NCBI GenBank assembly: GCA_019120615.1
Contig: DWUT01000249.1
Location: forward strand, 1 to 38,048
Direction of reading: 5' to 3'
DNA: 38,048 nucleotides
Source of the DNA: Candidatus Mediterraneibacter norfolkensis
Lineage (GTDB): Bacteria; Bacillota; Clostridia; Lachnospirales; Lachnospiraceae
In this document: one piece after another, positions 621-14,646 of the stretch
How positions within the stretch are numbered: the stretch's first letter is position 1
Layout of the letters: each line of letters starts with the position of its first letter
The notes under the pieces: generated by a model
Seen by the model: only the letters and a program-made list of their open reading frames with translations
Told to the model about the DNA's origin: nothing
Database searches by the model: none
Made by a program: the position numbers and the translations under genes

Positions 621-1124
621 ATGGAACAGTTTCTTCAGGTCGGGGTTATCTCATCCACTCACGGAATCCGTGGAGAAGTCAAGGTGTTTCCCACAACAGA
701 TAACGCCGCCCGTTTTAAAGAACTGAAAAACGTGCTGCTTGATACGGGAAAAGAGCGGATCGGACTTGAGATCCAGTCCGTGAAGTTTTTCAAGCAGTTT
801 GTGATCGTGAAATTTAAAGGGATTGACAATATCAACGATATTGAGAGGTATAAGGGCAGAAGTCTTCTTGTTGCAAGAGAGGACGCCGCAGAACTGGGTG
901 AAGATGAATATTATATCGCAGATCTGATCGGAATGGACGTGTTTACGGAGGAAGGGCACTTCGGTGTGCTTCGAGACGTCATGGAGACAGGGGCGAATGA
1001 AGTATATATCGTAGATTCGGACCGTCACGGGGAGGTGCTCATCCCGGCGATACGACAGTGTGTGCTGGAGGTGGATCCGGAGGAGAACAGGATGACGGTG
1101 CGGATCATGGATGGGTTGATATAG
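621..1124 (+). CDS. rimM: 16S rRNA processing protein RimM
   Basis: LQVGVISSTHGIRGEVKVFPTTD, PRC-barrel-like C-terminus, ends MDGLI; synteny. Confidence 0.96.
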   Translation: MEQFLQVGVISSTHGIRGEVKVFPTTDNAARFKELKNVLLDTGKERIGLEIQSVKFFKQFVIVKFKGIDNINDIERYKGRSLLVAREDAAELGEDEYYIADLIGMDVFTEEGHFGVLRDVMETGANEVYIVDSDRHGEVLIPAIRQCVLEVDPEENRMTVRIMDGLI

Positions 1125-1217
1125 TTAGGTGTTGTCAGAATTAAGTCCGTATTATGGGACGAGTTAAGCGATATTCTTATTGTATCAGGTGGTGTATAAA
1201 ATGAAGGAGCTGTTAAG

Positions 1218-3017
1218 TTGAACGACATTAAACACTTATTTGAAAGACCGTTACCTTCTGTTAGAAGTGGGGCTTTCTTTAATACATTTTCATATCCGAC
1301 TAAAATATCACCGGAGTCTATTGCTGTGTACATTGCGGCAACAACAAAGCCAGGTGAAACAGTTCTGGATACTTTTAGCGGGAGTGGGAGTACGGGTATT
1401 GCAGCTTTACTATGTGAACATCCAACAGATAGAATGAAGGTATTAGCGGATGAATTAGGTTTATCTCCGATTTGGGGACCAAGGAATGCTATTGGGTATG
1501 AGGTTGGGACATATGCTTCCTTTGCTTCAAAAACTATAAGTAGCAGACTAAAATCAATTGAGTTCAAAGAGGCCGTTGCAGATTTTACTAAGAAAGAAAA
1601 AGAACATCTAATGTCCTATTATTCAGCAGTAGACCCAGATGGTAAAATAGGAACTATACGATATATCATATGGTCAGAAGTCCTGCTGTGTCCTGACTGT
1701 GGTAATGAAGTTTCTTTTTTTGAAAGTGGAACAAAAAGGAATCCGGTTGTATTTGAAAAAGACATTATTTGTCCACATTGCCAAAAGAAGACGTCTGTTA
1801 ATGAGATGAAATTCCAGACAGAAAAATATAAGGACGGATTAACGGGGAAACAGTCTATAAGAAAGAAGCGCATCCCTGCATGGGTTTATGGTACTACAAA
1901 TGGAAAAAATTGGGATAGACCTGCAATAGCTGAAGATTTAGAGTATGCAATAGAGATTGAACAAGAATTACGAGAATTAGATGATAAGCCCAAAGAAATA
2001 CAATGGGGCGAATTGCACAGGAATGGATATCATTTTGGAATTAAATATTTGCATCAGTTTTACACATCACGAAATTATTTAATTATGCGCAAACTATGGG
2101 ATGCTACAAATGAATATCCACCAAAGGTTAGAGATGGATTAAAATTATTATTGCTCAGCTATAATGCATCACACTGTACTTTGATGACTCGTGTTGTCGC
2201 AAAGAAAAATGCAAAAGATTTCATTTTGACAGGAGCACAGAGTGGAGTCCTATATATAAGTAAACTACCTGTTGAAAAAAACATAATTCTTGGCATTGAA
2301 AGAAAAGCTAAATCTTTTTACGAAGCATATGCAATGTTGGAGAATTGTACAGGAAATTTTACGATCAAGAATAAATCGAGTGAAAAACTTGAGGAAAAAG
2401 ACAACAGTATAGATTTCGTGTTTACAGACCCTCCCTTTGGTGATTTTATTCCTTATGCTGAAGTAAATCAGATTAATGAGCTATGGTTGGATAAGGTAAC
2501 AGACAGAAAAAAAGAGATTATTATCAGTACATCTCAGAATAAAGGAATTAATGATTATCAGAAAATGCTTTCAAAAGTTTTTTCTGAAATAAACAGAGTG
2601 TTGAAGGATAAGTCTTATGCGGCTGTTGTTTTCCACGCTGCAAAAGCTCAAATATGGACAGCTTTCGAAGACTCCGTTCTTAGCTCAGGATTAAATATTG
2701 AGCTTACAAATATTTTAGACAAAAAACAGGCGAGCTTTAAGCAGGTTGTTTCTAAATCCTCAGTGCAGGGAGATCCATTGCTATTATTAAGCAAGGAAGC
2801 CCGACATATTGGTGCGGTTAAGAATGAGGAAGACATTATAGAAAATATCATTTTATCAATGGAGTCTGGGGGGACTTTTGACGAACGAAGGGCATATTCT
2901 CTGTATGTCAATGAGTGTCTTCGTAATAATATTCATGTTTCGTATGATGCAAAAGATGCATATGTCCTTATTCGCCGGTTACGGAAGGGGGTAATTGATG
3001 CAGCATTTCAGGGATGA
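1218..3017 (+). CDS. SAM-dependent DNA methyltransferase with internal Zn-ribbon (DUF1156/COG1743-like topology); probable TTG start
   Basis: Motif I VLDTFSGSGSTGIAAL; CPDC...CPHC Zn-ribbon; motif IV DPPFGDFIPYAEVNQINELWL; SD aaggag about 8 nt upstream of TTG. Confidence 0.8.
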   Translation: MNDIKHLFERPLPSVRSGAFFNTFSYPTKISPESIAVYIAATTKPGETVLDTFSGSGSTGIAALLCEHPTDRMKVLADELGLSPIWGPRNAIGYEVGTYASFASKTISSRLKSIEFKEAVADFTKKEKEHLMSYYSAVDPDGKIGTIRYIIWSEVLLCPDCGNEVSFFESGTKRNPVVFEKDIICPHCQKKTSVNEMKFQTEKYKDGLTGKQSIRKKRIPAWVYGTTNGKNWDRPAIAEDLEYAIEIEQELRELDDKPKEIQWGELHRNGYHFGIKYLHQFYTSRNYLIMRKLWDATNEYPPKVRDGLKLLLLSYNASHCTLMTRVVAKKNAKDFILTGAQSGVLYISKLPVEKNIILGIERKAKSFYEAYAMLENCTGNFTIKNKSSEKLEEKDNSIDFVFTDPPFGDFIPYAEVNQINELWLDKVTDRKKEIIISTSQNKGINDYQKMLSKVFSEINRVLKDKSYAAVVFHAAKAQIWTAFEDSVLSSGLNIELTNILDKKQASFKQVVSKSSVQGDPLLLLSKEARHIGAVKNEEDIIENIILSMESGGTFDERRAYSLYVNECLRNNIHVSYDAKDAYVLIRRLRKGVIDAAFQG

Positions 3018-4980
3018 AGATTTAAAGATAAAACGCTATGGACAAGTATTCTCTGGAAAACTTGTAGGCAATTTGCTGGTTGCAATGCTGCCGGGTGATT
3101 TTGACGGAAAAACGATCATAGATCCAATGGTTGGACAGGGAGATTTGTTAAAAGCAGCATGTACAAAGTACTCGAATGCAGATTTAGTGCTGGGAATTGA
3201 TATTGATAAGGACGTGATAGATAAATGCAAAGACAACATTCCGGAAGCAAAGATAGTCAGGGATAATGCATTTATCAGCACAGAAATTAATATTGTTGAT
3301 GGTTGGGATTTAGTAATTACAAACCCGCCATATATCAGATATCAAACGCTTAGAAGAAATCCGGAGATTGGTTTGCCAGATGGCAGGGAACTCAGAAAAA
3401 GTTTAATAAAGCATATTCAGCAGTCAACAATTTTAAATGGCCGGGAAAAAAAGCTTTATTTAGAAATTGCAAATGGATATTCAGGGCTTTCAGACATGGC
3501 AGTGCCCTCTTGGATTTTATGTGCATCAATAGTGAAATCGGGCGGCTATATGGCAATGGTGGTGCCAGAAACATGGTTGAATAGAGATTATGCATTACCG
3601 ATACATTATTTACTCCTGCGGTGTTTTGAAGTCATTGCTATTGCACGAGATGTAGAGTCTGCGTGGTTTGAAAATGCCGAGGTGCGTACATGTTTGGTGA
3701 TATGTAGACGAAAAGAAAGTGAAACAATTAAAAAAAGTTTTTCAGATACAGTCGTTTTAGAGATTGGTCATAAAGTTAAAAGCGAAGATTCCCTTATTGG
3801 CAATTTGAAGTTTAATAATAGCTTCAACTACGAAGCTTTAAGGCAGATTCTTATGGAAAGGATTACTCATTCTGAAGAGGGCTTTTCGGCAAAATTAACT
3901 CCTTTGGCGGATCTTTTTCCAGGTCTTGTAGGCAGGCTTTCAGACCAGAAATGGGTTTTCAGAGAGGATAAAACAGATGTTCGGAAATCCGATTACATTC
4001 CGAATGAAATAAGGGAAATATTGGGCAATATAAATGATGTCGATTACGATTCTCTGGAATCATTAGGATGGTCTATTGGACAAGGCCTTAGAACAGGTGC
4101 AAATGAATTCTTCTATGTAAAAATTATATCTGAAGATGAGACGCCAGTTGTTAATACAGAACCGTGGTACGGGAGAGAAATACCTGTATCGGCGGATAAT
4201 CTCAGAAAGGCACTAAAAAAGCGTTCAGACATAGATGGACTTGTTGTTAATTATAATGATCTGGAAAGATGTATACTATATATTCAGCATCAGGTTAGAC
4301 AGGTGGATTTTCAAAGAGTGTCATATAAAGTAAAGGGCATGTATACATTGATGGAGACTGAACTGGATGATTATATTAGTTGTGGAGAAAAATATGTTTC
4401 ACCGTCACACAAAAAAGCCTTTAAGGAATTGTCTGCGGTTATCACTAATGAGAAAAAAATGGATGATGGATATGAAAGATTCTGGTATATGTTGCCCAAA
4501 TTAAAGAAAAGGCATGTGCCAAACTTATGCATGCCGCGAGTTTGCGGCGATAGCCCCGAAGCTCTGTTTGTAAATCAGGTAGAAGAAAAAAACATTATAG
4601 TTGACGCTAATTTTATTACTCTTTGGAATCCGGACACAAGATCTCAAGTTATCGCGTTTACTTTGTTGAATTCTACATGGGCAAAACTTTTTCTTGAGGT
4701 TATTGGAACAGTGATGGGCGGAGGTGCATTAAAAGTTGAAGCAAGTCATATAAGAAAAGTAGTATTTCCCCATTTAAATACTGAAAAGCAAAGAGAATTG
4801 GAGAAAATCGGAAAAATGATTCTTAAAGGAGGGAGGGTAGACAACAATATTCAAGAGCAAATTGACAGAATCGTAACATCTCCTTATGGAGAGGCTAAGA
4901 GCAATTTTCTGAATATTCAACTAAGAAAATTGCTTATAAAAAAATTGCATGAAAGGACTGGGCAAAAACATGATGAATAA
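2998..4980 (+). CDS. N6-adenine-specific DNA methyltransferase (gamma type, Eco57I/TaqI-like)
   Basis: Motif I IIDPMVGQGDLLKAA; motif IV DLVITNPPYIRY; C-terminal TRD-like LLNSTWAKLFLEVIGTVMGGGALKVEASHI; SD ggaaggggg before ATG 2998 (listed ORF starts at upstream TTG 2995). Confidence 0.85.
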   Translation: MQHFRDEDLKIKRYGQVFSGKLVGNLLVAMLPGDFDGKTIIDPMVGQGDLLKAACTKYSNADLVLGIDIDKDVIDKCKDNIPEAKIVRDNAFISTEINIVDGWDLVITNPPYIRYQTLRRNPEIGLPDGRELRKSLIKHIQQSTILNGREKKLYLEIANGYSGLSDMAVPSWILCASIVKSGGYMAMVVPETWLNRDYALPIHYLLLRCFEVIAIARDVESAWFENAEVRTCLVICRRKESETIKKSFSDTVVLEIGHKVKSEDSLIGNLKFNNSFNYEALRQILMERITHSEEGFSAKLTPLADLFPGLVGRLSDQKWVFREDKTDVRKSDYIPNEIREILGNINDVDYDSLESLGWSIGQGLRTGANEFFYVKIISEDETPVVNTEPWYGREIPVSADNLRKALKKRSDIDGLVVNYNDLERCILYIQHQVRQVDFQRVSYKVKGMYTLMETELDDYISCGEKYVSPSHKKAFKELSAVITNEKKMDDGYERFWYMLPKLKKRHVPNLCMPRVCGDSPEALFVNQVEEKNIIVDANFITLWNPDTRSQVIAFTLLNSTWAKLFLEVIGTVMGGGALKVEASHIRKVVFPHLNTEKQRELEKIGKMILKGGRVDNNIQEQIDRIVTSPYGEAKSNFLNIQLRKLLIKKLHERTGQKHDE

Positions 4981-7900
4981 AGACGAATTAAAATCATTTA
5001 TTGCAACCGCTCAGCATGAAATAGACAATGGCTCTGTGGAGGATAAACTTAGGCATTTGTTATCAGCAAGCCTGAGCAAAATATTTCCAGATACACCATG
5101 GTGGGTTCAGGATCATGTGATGGGCACAGAAACCTATCTTCATTTCGCAAATGCCAAAGGAAAAGAGCGAATTGGCTTTGCTGATTCCGTTGTTGGAAAA
5201 ACTGCAATTGAGTATGAGAAAAACCTGAGAATACCGGCTGTTTTTAATGAGGGATATCATCAGGTGGAAGAGTACTGTGCCGCATTATGTAATCTTGGCA
5301 TAGAGGAAAATGAGGTTCTTGGTATATTATCAGATACAGTAAGATGGTACGGATATTCGGTAAAAATAGTTGGGGATCATGAGAAAGAAGGGCTTTTAGG
5401 GGCTAATGATATCGAACTGAATCAAATGGATTTTGTTGACTTGTCAAATTCTACAGACGAGGAAATGGAGAAATTTGAAGTATTTGTTAATAAATATTTA
5501 GGGAGAGAACAGTCCAGAATTCTTACGGCTAAAACGCTGGTGCTGGATTTCGGTCTGGAGAGTGATTTTTACCGTAAGCAAATAAAGAGTTATAGAGATG
5601 TAGTTGAAAATGCAATGCAGTCAAATCCAAATTATGCGGAATTGATAAAAAAGTTATGGCAGAATTTTGTTGCATATTTAGGAGCATCTGAATCTGGAAC
5701 ATTCTCAATGGAAACATATACAAATGAGTATTATCTTGTTACTGTTGCAAAGATTATTTGCGCAAATATTCTTCATGGTTCCCCTCTCATTTGCGATGAA
5801 GCCGAGATGATTAAAATTTTGAACGGTCAGTATTTTCAGCAGAAGAATATCCAAAACTTCGTGGATTATGATTATTTTGGATGGTTGAACAGATCTCCAT
5901 ACGTTGAGGGGATTATTGAATGTGCAAAAAGAATACAGAGACTTCTGGTTAGTTATGACTTTAAGGTAATCGCTGAAGAAGATTTATTCGGTGCTTTGCT
6001 GGCTCAGCTATCTAATCGTGAACACCGCCTGCTTTTGGGACAGGACTTCACGCCACATTGGGTGGCGAAATGTATGGTGGAGTATGCTATTGAGGATATT
6101 GAAGAAGAGCCAGCAATTTTAGATATGTGCTGTGGATCAGGTGTATTCTTGATTGAGGCAATTAGAAAAGTACGTGAAAAGTACACGATTAATCCGAAGG
6201 AATATAATGCTGAGAAGGATAAAATAGTTTTTTCTTGTGTAATGGGATTTGACATTGATCCTCTTGCAGTTATGCTTGCAAAGGTCAACTGGATAATGTC
6301 GATGAGAGATTTATTTCCATATCACAGTGGTCAGATCACGATTCCTGTCTATCACGCAGATTCGTTATTTGTGGCAACACCAATCACCCATAATATGCCT
6401 TCCGGCAGCCAGGATTCTTATGTTATGCATTTTGATAATAATGAGGTCGAAATCCCTGGACACATGTTAACGCCTGCTCATAGACGTACATTTGATGCGT
6501 TTATGTCTATATGCTATAAATATGCCATGAAAAGGGCTGAGAAAAAGGAAAGTAATCTCACGGATAAACAAATTGATTTTGTTTTAACTTCTGTAGAAGC
6601 AGAAAGCAATATTGAGTTATCCCGTATAGAAAGGCAGACCGAGAGAGTGGCTGCGTACAACTTAATTTTACAACTGGAAAATCTTCAAAGGCGGGGGCGG
6701 AATGGAATCTGGTATTTCATTTTGAATAACAGTTATAAGCCAGGTTTAGTAACTAATCAGTTCAACTGTATTGTTTCGAATCCGCCGTGGCTGGCTATGA
6801 GTAAACTGGTTGATAATCCATACAAGAAAACCCTGCAGAGAAAAACAGATATGTTTGGAATAAAGCCACCGGGAGCTTCGCATCTTCACATGGAATTGGC
6901 GACCACTTTTTTATTAGCATCGATAGACAAATATTTGAAGGATGGCGCGAGATGGATGTGTATTATGCCGGGAAGTGTTTTAAGTGGTTATCATCACAAT
7001 CCACTAAGATTGGAAAAGTATAGAGAGTCTGCAGATTCAGTCGATACAAATATAGATATAATCTGGGAATTGCCTCTTTCAACATTCAAGAATAAGGCTG
7101 TAGTACTGGGAGGGATAAGAAGTAATAAGAAAAATGAATATCCTATCCGGGGAAGGGTTTATGTGGAACCGGATTTCTATGAAGAATGCAGATATACACT
7201 TAATAGACAGGGTAATCGTTCTGTATGGACAAATAAAGGAGAAAACGCAGATTTTTTGGATGTTATCAATTCTGATCCATGGGAATTTAATCAAGGCGCG
7301 GATATTATGCCAAGAACAGCATTGTTTCATGAATTCACAAAGTTGCCTAATGGGACATGGACAATAAAGAAAATAGAGAATAAATCTGATTTATACTATT
7401 TACTTAGTGACAGCCATAAGGATGTGTGTAGAAATTTGGAGGCAGAAGGATTCAGCGATGATTACATTTATGATTGTTTGATTTCAAAGCATTTATCACC
7501 CTTTTATGTTTCACAACCGGCAAAAGTAATCATACCTGGAAGTAAAACGGAAGGAAAATGGAAAGGAATTACTGAAGAAGAACTGGCACTGTTAAATTCA
7601 GGAACTGAATATGTTTTTTCCGAAATCCAGACGGCAAGTGGAATGCCGTTATCGGTACTGTTTGATCAGAAGATTAACATACGAAATAAGTTAGATAAGC
7701 AGAATTTTGCCCTGGCAAGATGGCTTGTATTATCTAATGCAGGTGGAACTAATCCCTGTGCTGCTTATATAGATTTAAATAAAACAGACAAGAAAAAACT
7801 AATTGTTGATCAGACAATATACTGGTATCTGGCAAAATCAGAAGAGGAAGCACTTTACATTACAGGTATATTGAACAGCGCAACATTGTCAACTGCAATA

Positions 7901-8209
7901 TCAGATTTTCAACCACAAGGAGGATTTGGCGCAAGACACATTCACACAATACCATACAAGATTATCCCTCGGTATGATGCAACTATTGATGCACATTTGG
8001 ATGTAGTTAATACAACAAAAGAGCTAATCACTGAATGGACAGAATATTGTGCTTCTGGAAAAGATGGGAGATATCTCTCTCCAAATAGTGGAAGTTTAAA
8101 TAGTAGACGGCGTAAACTGCGAACATCGCTCAAGACAATGACTTCATATGAAATTTATGAAGAAGCATGCAGTAGTATTTTGTGTACGGAACAAAATGCC
8201 CGTGATTGA
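4949..8209 (+). CDS. Large N6-adenine DNA methyltransferase with putative N-terminal PD-(D/E)xK-like nuclease (type IIG-like restriction-modification fusion); start 4949 or 4970
   Basis: GQDFTPHWVAKCMVEYAI; motif I ILDMCCGSGVFLIEAI; motif IV IVSNPPWLAM; N-terminal GFADSVVGKTAIEYEK...HQVEEY. Confidence 0.82.
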   Translation: MKGLGKNMMNKDELKSFIATAQHEIDNGSVEDKLRHLLSASLSKIFPDTPWWVQDHVMGTETYLHFANAKGKERIGFADSVVGKTAIEYEKNLRIPAVFNEGYHQVEEYCAALCNLGIEENEVLGILSDTVRWYGYSVKIVGDHEKEGLLGANDIELNQMDFVDLSNSTDEEMEKFEVFVNKYLGREQSRILTAKTLVLDFGLESDFYRKQIKSYRDVVENAMQSNPNYAELIKKLWQNFVAYLGASESGTFSMETYTNEYYLVTVAKIICANILHGSPLICDEAEMIKILNGQYFQQKNIQNFVDYDYFGWLNRSPYVEGIIECAKRIQRLLVSYDFKVIAEEDLFGALLAQLSNREHRLLLGQDFTPHWVAKCMVEYAIEDIEEEPAILDMCCGSGVFLIEAIRKVREKYTINPKEYNAEKDKIVFSCVMGFDIDPLAVMLAKVNWIMSMRDLFPYHSGQITIPVYHADSLFVATPITHNMPSGSQDSYVMHFDNNEVEIPGHMLTPAHRRTFDAFMSICYKYAMKRAEKKESNLTDKQIDFVLTSVEAESNIELSRIERQTERVAAYNLILQLENLQRRGRNGIWYFILNNSYKPGLVTNQFNCIVSNPPWLAMSKLVDNPYKKTLQRKTDMFGIKPPGASHLHMELATTFLLASIDKYLKDGARWMCIMPGSVLSGYHHNPLRLEKYRESADSVDTNIDIIWELPLSTFKNKAVVLGGIRSNKKNEYPIRGRVYVEPDFYEECRYTLNRQGNRSVWTNKGENADFLDVINSDPWEFNQGADIMPRTALFHEFTKLPNGTWTIKKIENKSDLYYLLSDSHKDVCRNLEAEGFSDDYIYDCLISKHLSPFYVSQPAKVIIPGSKTEGKWKGITEEELALLNSGTEYVFSEIQTASGMPLSVLFDQKINIRNKLDKQNFALARWLVLSNAGGTNPCAAYIDLNKTDKKKLIVDQTIYWYLAKSEEEALYITGILNSATLSTAISDFQPQGGFGARHIHTIPYKIIPRYDATIDAHLDVVNTTKELITEWTEYCASGKDGRYLSPNSGSLNSRRRKLRTSLKTMTSYEIYEEACSSILCTEQNARD

Positions 8210-8254
8210 TTTAGAAAAATCAAGTCATATTTTGGAGTGAAGGAGAACAGACAT

Positions 8255-9088
8255 ATGAATTTTCACATACTTACTCTTTTTCCGGAGATGGTCCTGAACG
8301 GGCTGAACACCAGCATCATCGGGCGTGCCGTAAATTCAGGACTGCTCTCGATCGAGGCGGTGAACATCCGGGACTACGCGTTCAACAAACATCAGAGCGT
8401 GGACGACTACCCCTACGGCGGAGGCGCCGGGATGCTGATGCAGGCGGAACCGGTTTATCTTGCCTGGGAGGCGGTGGAAGAGAAGATAAGGGCGCGGCGG
8501 GAACTCCCGGCGGAGAACGAGGCGGCGCTGGCAGAACAGGCGGAAATACCGGAACAGAGCAAAGCGGCGGAGAACGAGGGAAAGAGGACCCGGGTCGTCT
8601 ATCTTTCTCCACAGGGCGATGTCTTTAATCAGAAGATGGCGGAAGAACTGGCGCAGGAGGAGGACCTGATCCTTCTGTGCGGCCATTACGAAGGAATCGA
8701 TGAGAGAGTGCTGGAGGAGATCGTGACGGACTATGTGTCTATCGGGGACTATGTCCTGACCGGCGGGGAACTCCCGGCAATGGTCATGGTGGACGCCATA
8801 TCCAGGCTGGTGCCAGGCGTCCTGCACAACGACGTGTCCGCGGAGTTTGAGTCCTTCCAGGACAACCTTCTGGAATATCCCCAGTATTCCAGACCGGAGG
8901 AATGGCACGGGAAAAAAGTGCCCCCGGTCCTCCTGTCCGGACATCACGCCAATATCGAAAAGTGGAGGCGGGAGCAGTCCATCCTCCGGACAAAGGAGCG
9001 GAGACCGGATCTTCTTGAAAAGTGCGAGCTGACGGAGAAGGAGAAAAAGTGGCTGGAAGGGCTTGCATTCCCGGAAGAAATATGGTAA
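8255..9088 (+). CDS. trmD: tRNA (guanine-N1)-methyltransferase, with a charged/Ala-rich insertion
   Basis: [13 protein letters not shown]...[19 protein letters not shown]...[11 protein letters not shown]...[13 protein letters not shown]...[23 protein letters not shown] aggag before ATG 8255. Confidence 0.97.
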
Positions 9089-9174: not shown

Positions 9175-9522
9175 ATGAACGAGATCATTAAGAAGATCGA
9201 AGCAGAGCAGTTAAAGGCTGAGGTTCCCCAGTTTAACGTGGGTGATACCGTAAGAGTACACGCAAAGATCAAAGAGGGTAACCGCGAAAGAATCCAGGTT
9301 TTCGAGGGAACAGTCCTGAAGAAACAGGGTGGCGGAGCGAGAGCTACTTTCACAGTAAGAAAGACATCCAACGGAATCGGAGTTGAGAAAACATGGCCGA
9401 TCCACTCTCCGCACGTTGAAAAAGTAGAGGTTGTCCGCAGAGGTAAAGTAAGAAGAGCTAAACTGAACTACTTGAGAAAACGCGTGGGTAAAGCTGCTAA
9501 GGTGAAAGAATTAGTAAAATAA
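9175..9522 (+). CDS. rplS: 50S ribosomal protein L19
   Basis: [60 protein letters not shown]. Confidence 0.98.
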
Positions 9523-12435: not shown

Positions 12436-12786
12436 ATGCCGGAGAAAAGGAACAGACGGCAGACAGGCACGGATTATGAGCGGGCGGCCGGATTCTATCT
12501 GGAACAGATGGGGTGGACGATACTGGAATACAATTACAGATGCAGGAGCGCAGAGATAGATATAGTTGCCAGAGACGGGGAGTATCTGGTATTCTGTGAA
12601 GTGAAGTACCGTTCGGACGGAACAAAAGGAGATCCGCTCGAGGCGGTGGACGCGCGGAAACAGCAGCGGATCCGAAGAGCGGCTCTGTATTATCTGACAG
12701 AGCATGGGAAGAACGACGCGCCCTGCCGGTTTGATGTGATCGGGATCCAGGGAACGAAGATCACACATATCCGGGACGCTTTCTGA
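12436..12786 (+). CDS. YraN/UPF0102 family putative endonuclease
   Basis: RRQTGTDYERAAGFYLEQMGWTILEYNYRCRSAEIDIVARDGEYLVFCEVKYR; synteny with rnhB. Confidence 0.93.
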   Translation: MPEKRNRRQTGTDYERAAGFYLEQMGWTILEYNYRCRSAEIDIVARDGEYLVFCEVKYRSDGTKGDPLEAVDARKQQRIRRAALYYLTEHGKNDAPCRFDVIGIQGTKITHIRDAF

Positions 12787-12829
12787 AAAATGTGCTTGAA
12801 AAAAGTTATTTGAGAAGGGAGGCGGCTAT

Positions 12830-13693
12830 ATGAGTCTGGGGCTTCATTATAAGGATGACAGGCATATATTTGACGAGCGGGGACTGGGAGGAACCCCTTA
12901 TCTGGAATTTCCTCTCTTAAGAGAAACAGGGATCGTGAAACATGGATTCTCCACCAGGCTGGGCGGTGTAAGCCGCGGAGACTACGCTTCTCTGAACCTG
13001 AGTTTTGACCGGGGAGACGATCCGGAGGCAGTGCGGGAGAACTTCAGGCGCATCGGAGCAGCCATCGGTGTGAGATGTGAGGATATGGTCCTTTCACAAC
13101 AGACCCATACTACCAATATCCGGCTTGTGACAGAAGAAGACAGAGGAAAAGGCATTGTAAGGGAACGGGACTACACAGATGTGGACGGTCTGATCACAGA
13201 TGTTCCGGGAATCTGTCTCGTGACCGGTTATGCGGACTGCGTCCCCCTGTATTTCGTGGATCCGGTTAAGAAGGCGATCGGGCTGAGCCACTCCGGATGG
13301 CGCGGCACTGTCGGGAAGATCGGGAAAAAGACAGTGGACATGATGACGGAGCAGTTTGGGTCTGATCCGAAAGATATTCTTGCCGCAGTGGGTCCTTCGG
13401 TCTGTATGGACTGCTACGAGGTAAGTGAAGAGGTGATCGAAAAGTTCCGGGAAAACTTTGATGAAGAGTGCTGGAAGGAACTTTTTTACAGAAAGGACAA
13501 TGGAAAATATCAGCTGGATCTCTGGAAAGCGAATGAATTGATCTTCCGGGAAGCCGGGATCCTGCCGGAGCATATGGCAGTGACAAACGTCTGTACCCAC
13601 TGCAACAGCCGGATCCTGTATTCTCACCGTGCGGCGGGAAACCGGAGGGGAAACCTCTCTGCGTTTCTTGCCCTCAGACAAGGAGGTAGATGA
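12830..13693 (+). CDS. pgeF: Peptidoglycan editing factor PgeF (YfiH family)
   Basis: KHGFSTRLGGVS; QQTHTTNI; DGLITDVPGICLVTGYADCVPLYFVDP; GLSHSGWRGT. Confidence 0.93.
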   Translation: MSLGLHYKDDRHIFDERGLGGTPYLEFPLLRETGIVKHGFSTRLGGVSRGDYASLNLSFDRGDDPEAVRENFRRIGAAIGVRCEDMVLSQQTHTTNIRLVTEEDRGKGIVRERDYTDVDGLITDVPGICLVTGYADCVPLYFVDPVKKAIGLSHSGWRGTVGKIGKKTVDMMTEQFGSDPKDILAAVGPSVCMDCYEVSEEVIEKFRENFDEECWKELFYRKDNGKYQLDLWKANELIFREAGILPEHMAVTNVCTHCNSRILYSHRAAGNRRGNLSAFLALRQGGR

Positions 13694-14646
13694 ATATGTT
13701 TGAAACAGCAGGAAAGTTAATGGCATATCTGACGGTCCTTACATCCACATCCGGTACGACGGATCAGACTGTGGAAGAGGTGATCGACTCCGCAACGGAG
13801 GTTACGGCGGAAGCGGGACAGGAAGTGAACCAGTTCTTCCAGATGTTCCAGGACAACCTGCCGAACATTGTAGCGTTTGGACTTCAGGTTGTGTTTGCAT
13901 TTGTCTTTTTTATTATTGGAAGCAAAGTGATCAGCTGGATCCGGAAGCTGGTACGCCGGTCCATGGAACGTGCAGATGCGGATACCGGGGTGCAGCAGTT
14001 TGTGGATTCACTGCTGAAATTCGGTTTATACGCCATCCTTCTCTTCTCTATTGCAACCAGGTTTGGAGTTGAGCCATCTTCGGTTGCGGCTCTGATCGCT
14101 TCAGCAGGAGTGGCTGTAGGCCTGGCATTACAGGGGAGCCTTTCAAACTTTGCAGGCGGGATCCTTATCCTTCTCATCAAGCCGTTTGCGGTGGGAGACT
14201 ATATTATCGTGACGGGAGAAGGGATCGAGGGGACGGTAAAAGAGATCCAGATCTTTTACACGAAGATGGCGACAGTGGACAATCAGACTGTCGTCGTACC
14301 TAATGGCATCCTGACGGACAACAGTCTGACAAACGTTACGGCAAGGCCGGAGCGACAGCTCGATCTGAAGGTGGGAATCTCATATGATTCTGATCTGAGA
14401 AAGGCAAAAAGCCTGATCGAGAACATGCTTTTATCCCATGAAGATATCATACAGGATAAGGATATCAAGGTGTTTGTGGACTCTCTTGCCGACAGCGCTG
14501 TCATGATCGGGCTGAGGGCATGGGTCCCGACAGAGAAATACTGGGCGACCAGGTGGCAGCTTCTGGAAAATATCAAGCTGACCTTCGACGAGGAAGGGAT
14601 CGAGATCCCGTATGATCAGCTTACGGTACATGTGAAGGAGCAGTAA
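13690..14646 (+). CDS. MscS-family mechanosensitive ion channel (start 13690 or 13696)
   Basis: Three N-terminal hydrophobic segments; ASAGVAVGLALQGSLSNFAGGILILLIKPFAVGDYI. Confidence 0.93.
   Translation: MNMFETAGKLMAYLTVLTSTSGTTDQTVEEVIDSATEVTAEAGQEVNQFFQMFQDNLPNIVAFGLQVVFAFVFFIIGSKVISWIRKLVRRSMERADADTGVQQFVDSLLKFGLYAILLFSIATRFGVEPSSVAALIASAGVAVGLALQGSLSNFAGGILILLIKPFAVGDYIIVTGEGIEGTVKEIQIFYTKMATVDNQTVVVPNGILTDNSLTNVTARPERQLDLKVGISYDSDLRKAKSLIENMLLSHEDIIQDKDIKVFVDSLADSAVMIGLRAWVPTEKYWATRWQLLENIKLTFDEEGIEIPYDQLTVHVKEQ

Follow-up and report, generated by a model that had tools for sequence, protein, structure and literature searches.

A probable Type IIG restriction-modification cassette with two companion methyltransferases in the rimM-trmD gap of a gut Lachnospiraceae genome

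What are three large, overlapping DNA methyltransferase (MTase) genes doing between two genes of a ribosome-maturation operon, with no ATPase in sight? They lie in a window of 38,048 nucleotides (the whole stretch of DNA analyzed here) that is part of the 3.58-Mb assembly of Candidatus Mediterraneibacter norfolkensis. A sequence-only reading had described genes A, B, and C as apparently translationally coupled, each with its own SAM motif I and catalytic motif and none an obvious duplication of another; it had seen a nuclease-like domain on the third protein and no helicase or translocase, and had suggested a novel multi-methylase restriction-modification (R-M) or phage-defense module of an architecture unlike any it recognized.

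Three intact genes inserted in a host operon

The description of the genes holds. All three are intact and lie on the same strand, and both junctions overlap, which supports translational coupling. Motif I and the catalytic motif read DTFSGSGSTG (1368-1397) and TDPPFG (2424-2441) in gene A, DPMVGQGD (3121-3144) and NPPY (3322-3333) in gene B, and DMCCGSGVF (6122-6148) and NPPW (6779-6790) in gene C. The features of the locus are as follows.

621-1124, plus strand: rimM, left flank, host operon (PF01782)
1125-1217, plus strand: left junction from the rimM stop to the gene A start; foreign, AT-rich, with AAGGAG preceding the TTG
1218-3017, plus strand: gene A, 599-aa amino-MTase of the PglXI/BrxXI family, proposed companion MTase (PF01555; PglXI, 1.1e-98)
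2998-4980, plus strand: gene B, 660-661-aa gamma-class N6-adenine MTase, proposed companion MTase (PF07669, PF02384)
4970-8209, plus strand (ORF open from 4949): gene C, predicted Type IIG R~gammaM~S protein of ~1,080 aa (1,078-1,086) (PDLC03630)
5174-5275, plus strand: PD-(D/E)XK-like motif of C, D79 ... E88-Y-E90-K91 ... Q105xxxY109 (13-homolog alignment)
8210-8254, plus strand: right junction from the gene C stop to the trmD start (ATG 8255); the trmD Shine-Dalgarno GAAGGAGAACAG is kept as in the empty-site relative
8255-9088, plus strand: trmD, right flank, host operon (PF01746)
9175-9522, plus strand: rplS, host operon, after trmD (PF01245)

Gene A starts with TTG, three close relatives having GTG at the aligned position, and gene B with the ATG at 2998, immediately preceded by a TTG at 2995. 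For gene C, a start at ATG 4970 or 4973 is more likely than one at 4949, because a Shine-Dalgarno-like stretch (AAAGGA) lies ahead and the proteins of two relatives (L012 and L013) start at the same MNKxELRS. The three reading frames are not chance products, since 200 shuffled versions of this DNA yielded no stop-free run longer than 145 codons and pairwise dN/dS among close relatives is 0.04-0.14 (computable in 17 of 18 comparisons, dS being saturated in the other). A, B, and C are all under purifying selection, with gene C the most constrained (0.04-0.10).

The cassette has a GC content of 36-38% against ~52% in its surroundings, and a GC3 of 0.29-0.33 against 0.57-0.72 in rimM, trmD, lepB, and araA (0.47 in rplS). 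The insertion is clean, bounded by rimM on the left and trmD on the right; this essential operon is absent from the sequence-only reading. In the 38 same-genus genomes where both genes are readable, the gap is empty and 2-63 nt long (minus-strand gaps were derived from match coordinates). The closest empty site (L030/L072; rimM 95% identical) reads GATATAACAGGAAGGAGAACAGCCGTATG, and the window retains GAAGGAGAACAGACATATG ahead of trmD, so that the insertion preserved the trmD ribosome-binding site. We rejected ends of the mobile-element kind, as no direct or inverted repeat of at least 9 bp is common to both cassette ends and the cassette has no integrase. It also encodes no helicase or ATPase, and none is matched by Pfam in A, B, or C; the ATP-dependent translocase or helicase subunit or domain of Type I, Type III, and ISP systems is missing.

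Families of the three proteins

Gene C is predicted, from its motifs and family matches, to be a Type IIG restriction enzyme-MTase, a single protein in which a PD-(D/E)XK-like motif in the N-terminal part precedes a gamma-class MTase, with a specificity region at the C-terminus. It matches the PADLOC family REase_MTase_IIG (PDLC03630) at 1.4e-59, has motif I at residues 392-400 and NPPW at 611-614, and its profile finds solved gamma-class enzymes including RM.BsaXI. D79, E88, L93, Q105, Y109, D129, and W133 are invariant in the N-terminal part of 13 homologs, a signature that we read as PD-(D/E)XK plus a Q..Y pattern and that agrees with the nuclease-like domain noticed earlier. Pfam detects no nuclease domain in C or its homologs, and the predicted structure of C (pLDDT 44) is too poor for judging a nuclease fold. 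In the trio clade the lysine of "ExK" is a glutamate with a lysine next to it (E-Y-E-K); among the distant homologs, the majority have EVK or EFK, and two stand-alone ones (L021 and L024) have EWEK.

Outside the trio, gene C is related to N-6 MTase proteins that stand alone and have the Type IIG layout (22-26% identity), with alignments covering 67-96% of its length among the distant matches listed. Full-length, stand-alone homologs occur on plasmids of Salinibacter, Cupriavidus, Methylocystis, Rhodococcus, Corynebacterium, Kocuria, and Rhizobium, and the distant one on the Rhizobium Q54 plasmid is annotated "BseRI"; the nearest named relatives are "uncultured Lachnospiraceae" MAGs. The Cupriavidus plasmid (L021:1-11099) has SNF2-related, site-specific MTase, and DEAD helicase genes upstream of the C-like Type IIG gene, an arrangement that possibly represents nested defense systems.

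Gene B matches Eco57I (PF07669) and N6_Mtase (PF02384) in Pfam and has a long C-terminal putative target-recognition region; it would be the separate gamma-class m6A companion MTase of a Type IIG RM & M1 & M2 system. Its profile finds M.BseCI at 1.4e-05, and Foldseek, run on a low-confidence model (pLDDT 48; the MTase part, mostly 50-80, is its sole usable part), returns CamA, M.BseCI, BpuSI, and M.TaqI. Gene B also weakly resembles the Alw26I/Eco31I Type IIS MTases (met_A_Alw26, TIGR02987; 2.7e-11 over the MTase domain), but its 43 bits fall far below the curated cut-off of 353 bits and the cassette lacks a separate Type IIS REase. When the profiles of B and C were compared, only 84 columns aligned, around motif IV, and no homologous specificity domain was found between them. 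Given this short alignment and the different MTase families assigned by Pfam and PADLOC, we rejected a set of duplicated MTases, in line with the sequence-only reading. Single-sequence searches of the PDB gave no match for B or C, and for A only short MTase-motif stretches or unrelated weak matches.

Gene A belongs to N6_N4_Mtase (PF01555) in Pfam and, as a putative amino-MTase, may produce m6A or m4C. It matches MTase_II families at 3e-60 and 7e-50 and PglXI over residues 19-519 (profile positions 114-615 of 919). Motif I is followed by a nested four-cysteine region and then by motif IV, DPPF; C158, C161, C185, C188, and DPPFG are invariant in an alignment of seven sequences. Motif I, the four cysteines between motifs I and IV, and DPPFG are common to gene A and two BREX-3 MTases, which we accepted as genuine through their neighboring brxF and pglZ. 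This nested-TRD, four-Cys architecture has been described for BrxXI, for whose insert-TRD no homologs outside BREX systems were reported (PMC12839542). Gene A appears to be such a homolog, and it ties the BREX-3 MTase family to a system without ATPase, helicase, or PglZ.

Unlike the ~900-aa PglXI/BrxXI proteins of BREX type 3, gene A ends at 599 aa, just where the HTH-rich C-terminal ~300 residues of the BREX-3 MTases begin, and its partners are B and C. None of BrxC, PglZ, BrxF, BrxHII, and BrxA is encoded between rimM and trmD or recurs beside the other trios; with these partners missing and PglXI truncated, we rejected a BREX variant. The cassette also falls outside DISARM, MADS, and DUF1156 systems, its matches staying below the curated cut-offs (NF042963, 34.9 vs. 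1000 bits; MADS2, 32.7 vs. 720), and the DrmMI match reaches only 16 bits. On a Pseudarthrobacter plasmid (L058:8977-16627), two PglXI-like MTases of 592 and 611 aa lie in tandem, together with an AAA_5 ATPase and a 668-aa protein that has no match in Pfam; this may be a distinct, uncharacterized system.

Recurrence of the trio and its interpretation

The sequence-only reading depended on A, B, and C belonging together, and they do: the trio recurs across phyla, in the same order and with tight junctions, in six loci from Bacillota, Bacteroidota, and a phage contig. Three gut Lachnospiraceae (L011, L012, and L013) carry it with identities of 78-80% for A, 63-67% for B, and 80-84% for C, and a plasmid of Hymenobacter cellulosilyticus with 45% (A, in two frames), 34%, and 41%. 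The Hymenobacter copy, which is the sole plasmid match of gene B and adjoins A and C, has its gene A homolog split by a frameshift (L020:5069-5096) and annotated as two hypothetical proteins, which points to a sequencing error or to a disrupted gene. Another copy lies on an IMG/VR tailed-phage contig (L063, 1-13761), A being cut by the contig end. We found it with the C alignment; the single C sequence and the B alignment gave no viral-contig match. On this contig the capsid, protease, portal, and terminase genes are on one strand and the trio is on the other, and another MTase is present at 12776-13750.

In addition, a B-C pair fills a 3-kb contig and runs off both ends (G925), and one genome (G819) has A-B (50% and 35% identity) followed by unrelated genes, gene C not being found in the genome. 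The latter is expected if C restricts, the toxic subunit having been lost and the protective ones left. Gene A adjoins gene B in every copy with that side visible, and the identity ranking is congruent across A, B, and C. The family is rare: C-like orthologs occur in 2 of 388 class-level genomes and B-like orthologs in 2 of 398 phylum-level genomes, its own genome counted in each.

Several copies have known defense genes as neighbors. In L012 the cassette sits in an island with LmuA/LmuB-like (Lamassu-like) genes upstream and PDDEXK_5 and LeoBC-like genes downstream, and the Hymenobacter trio adjoins an ABC-3C operon and an integrase; known defense genes and an integrase beside the copies give the trio the profile of a mobile defense cassette. 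In L011 and L013 the cassette lies directly downstream of a 23S rRNA MTase rlmD/rumA-like gene (assigned by eye from the translation). Such a gene is near all three close copies, an apparent second landing site of the trio.

Comparison with known systems shows that the layout is already published. BpuSI is R~gammaM~S & M1 & M2, and BseRI is R~gammaM~S & M1~M2, with an m4C-MTase fused to a gamma-MTase (PMC3874165 Table 4). The cassette shares with BpuSI a fused RM-specificity protein, two separate companion MTases (one of them gamma-class m6A), and the lack of an ATPase, which is expected because Type IIG enzymes need none. In BpuSI, however, the second companion is an m5C-MTase rather than a PglXI-type amino-MTase, and the nuclease domain is FokI-like, whereas gene C has D...E-x-(E/K)...Q..Y. 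BseRI, compared by its described layout, likewise pairs R~gammaM~S with two modification enzymes, a gamma-MTase and a second amino-MTase, but these are fused there and separate genes here. The idea of an architecture unlike any known thus falls to the BpuSI precedent (PMC3874165 Table 4; PMC3817140); what survives of the proposed novel module is a compact R-M or defense cassette, and a match to a named system exists for the kind of layout but not for the protein family, of which the libraries searched contain no named member. The trio is a new, uncharacterized family within a known R-M layout, and our literature search found nothing on it or on the rimM-trmD gap as a defense site.

We therefore consider it highly probable that the cassette is a Type IIG R-M system with two stand-alone companion MTases (RM & M1 & M2). 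Two features are mildly surprising: one companion is of the BREX-3 type, and R-M systems have settled repeatedly in the rimM-trmD gap. Stable clones of the BpuSI RM enzyme need both M1 and M2, and clones without M1 are unstable; M1 and the RM enzyme methylate the same adenine and M2 the other strand, and the methylation by RM.BpuSI itself is minor, too weak as the main protection (PMC3817140). By the same logic, C would restrict, and A and B would protect. Modeled on BpuSI and BseRI, C would use its C-terminal specificity region to bind a short site, probably an asymmetric one. On unmodified sites, its N-terminal PD-(D/E)XK-like domain would cut a fixed distance away, with SAM stimulating the reaction and ATP not being required. 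B (gamma-class, m6A) and A (PglXI-type, m6A or m4C) would share this specificity and jointly modify both strands of the site in the host, dividing the strands between them, with C's own methylation weak or auxiliary and the three genes traveling as a single mobile unit. Such a trio extends the R-M repertoire by a mobile Type IIG family that spans phyla and includes two companion methylases, and it lets the division of labor among three MTases on one site be tested, G819 offering A-B without C.

Other readings of the same evidence are unlikely to differing degrees. A BREX-3-type MTase might have been recruited as an obligate Type IIG partner, with methylation or binding by A in an A-B-C complex gating cleavage by C; we think this unlikely, and if true the system would combine marking in the manner of BREX with cutting of the Type IIG kind, in place of independent companion MTases. 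It is quite unlikely that the system is degenerate and now methylates only, C having lost its nuclease activity in this lineage: the E-Y-E-K of the trio clade and the persistence of A-B without C in G819 would fit, yet C is under tighter constraint than A or B, D79, E88, Q105, and Y109 are fully conserved, and the stand-alone homologs L021 and L024 have the E-W-E-K form. E-x-E is, furthermore, found in active PD-(D/E)XK enzymes such as BamHI.

We regard as improbable a new type of defense in which C is not a conventional Type IIG endonuclease and an A-B-C complex marks or blocks DNA without cutting, as in BREX. The BREX-3 family of gene A, the overlapping genes, and the variant nuclease motif point in that direction, but the BREX partners are absent from the cassette and do not recur with the trio, the BREX-3 homologs of A adjoin brxF and pglZ as the trio does not, the nearest full-length relatives of C beyond the trio are Type IIG-like proteins that stand alone, and the nuclease signature is invariant in 13 homologs. 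Unrelated orphan or epigenetic MTases, adjacent by chance and each with its own site, would suit the faster evolution of B (63-67% against 78-84% identity), but we reject them as most improbable given the six recurrences with one order and tight junctions, the congruent identity ranking, and a sole plasmid match of B that adjoins A and C.

The rimM-trmD gap in relatives

A close genus relative (G398) has a different R-M system in the rimM-trmD gap (L069:769-9840 and L029:110-2170), comprising Fic, hsdM, a 139-aa ORF, hsdS, an integrase, a second hsdS, and hsdR; it is apparently split over two contigs, the second of which runs into trmD. The gap, within an essential operon, is thus a repeated R-M landing site, a small, checkable observation on where defense genes settle. 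A second relative (G1195, L074) has in its gap a scar of ~0.8 kb that contains an HsdM-like fragment and a copy of the 139-aa ORF broken by a frameshift. In a third (G1184, L071), AT-rich DNA with this ORF extends for 1.2 kb or more before the contig ends. These remnants suggest that R-M systems have been both gained and lost at this site.
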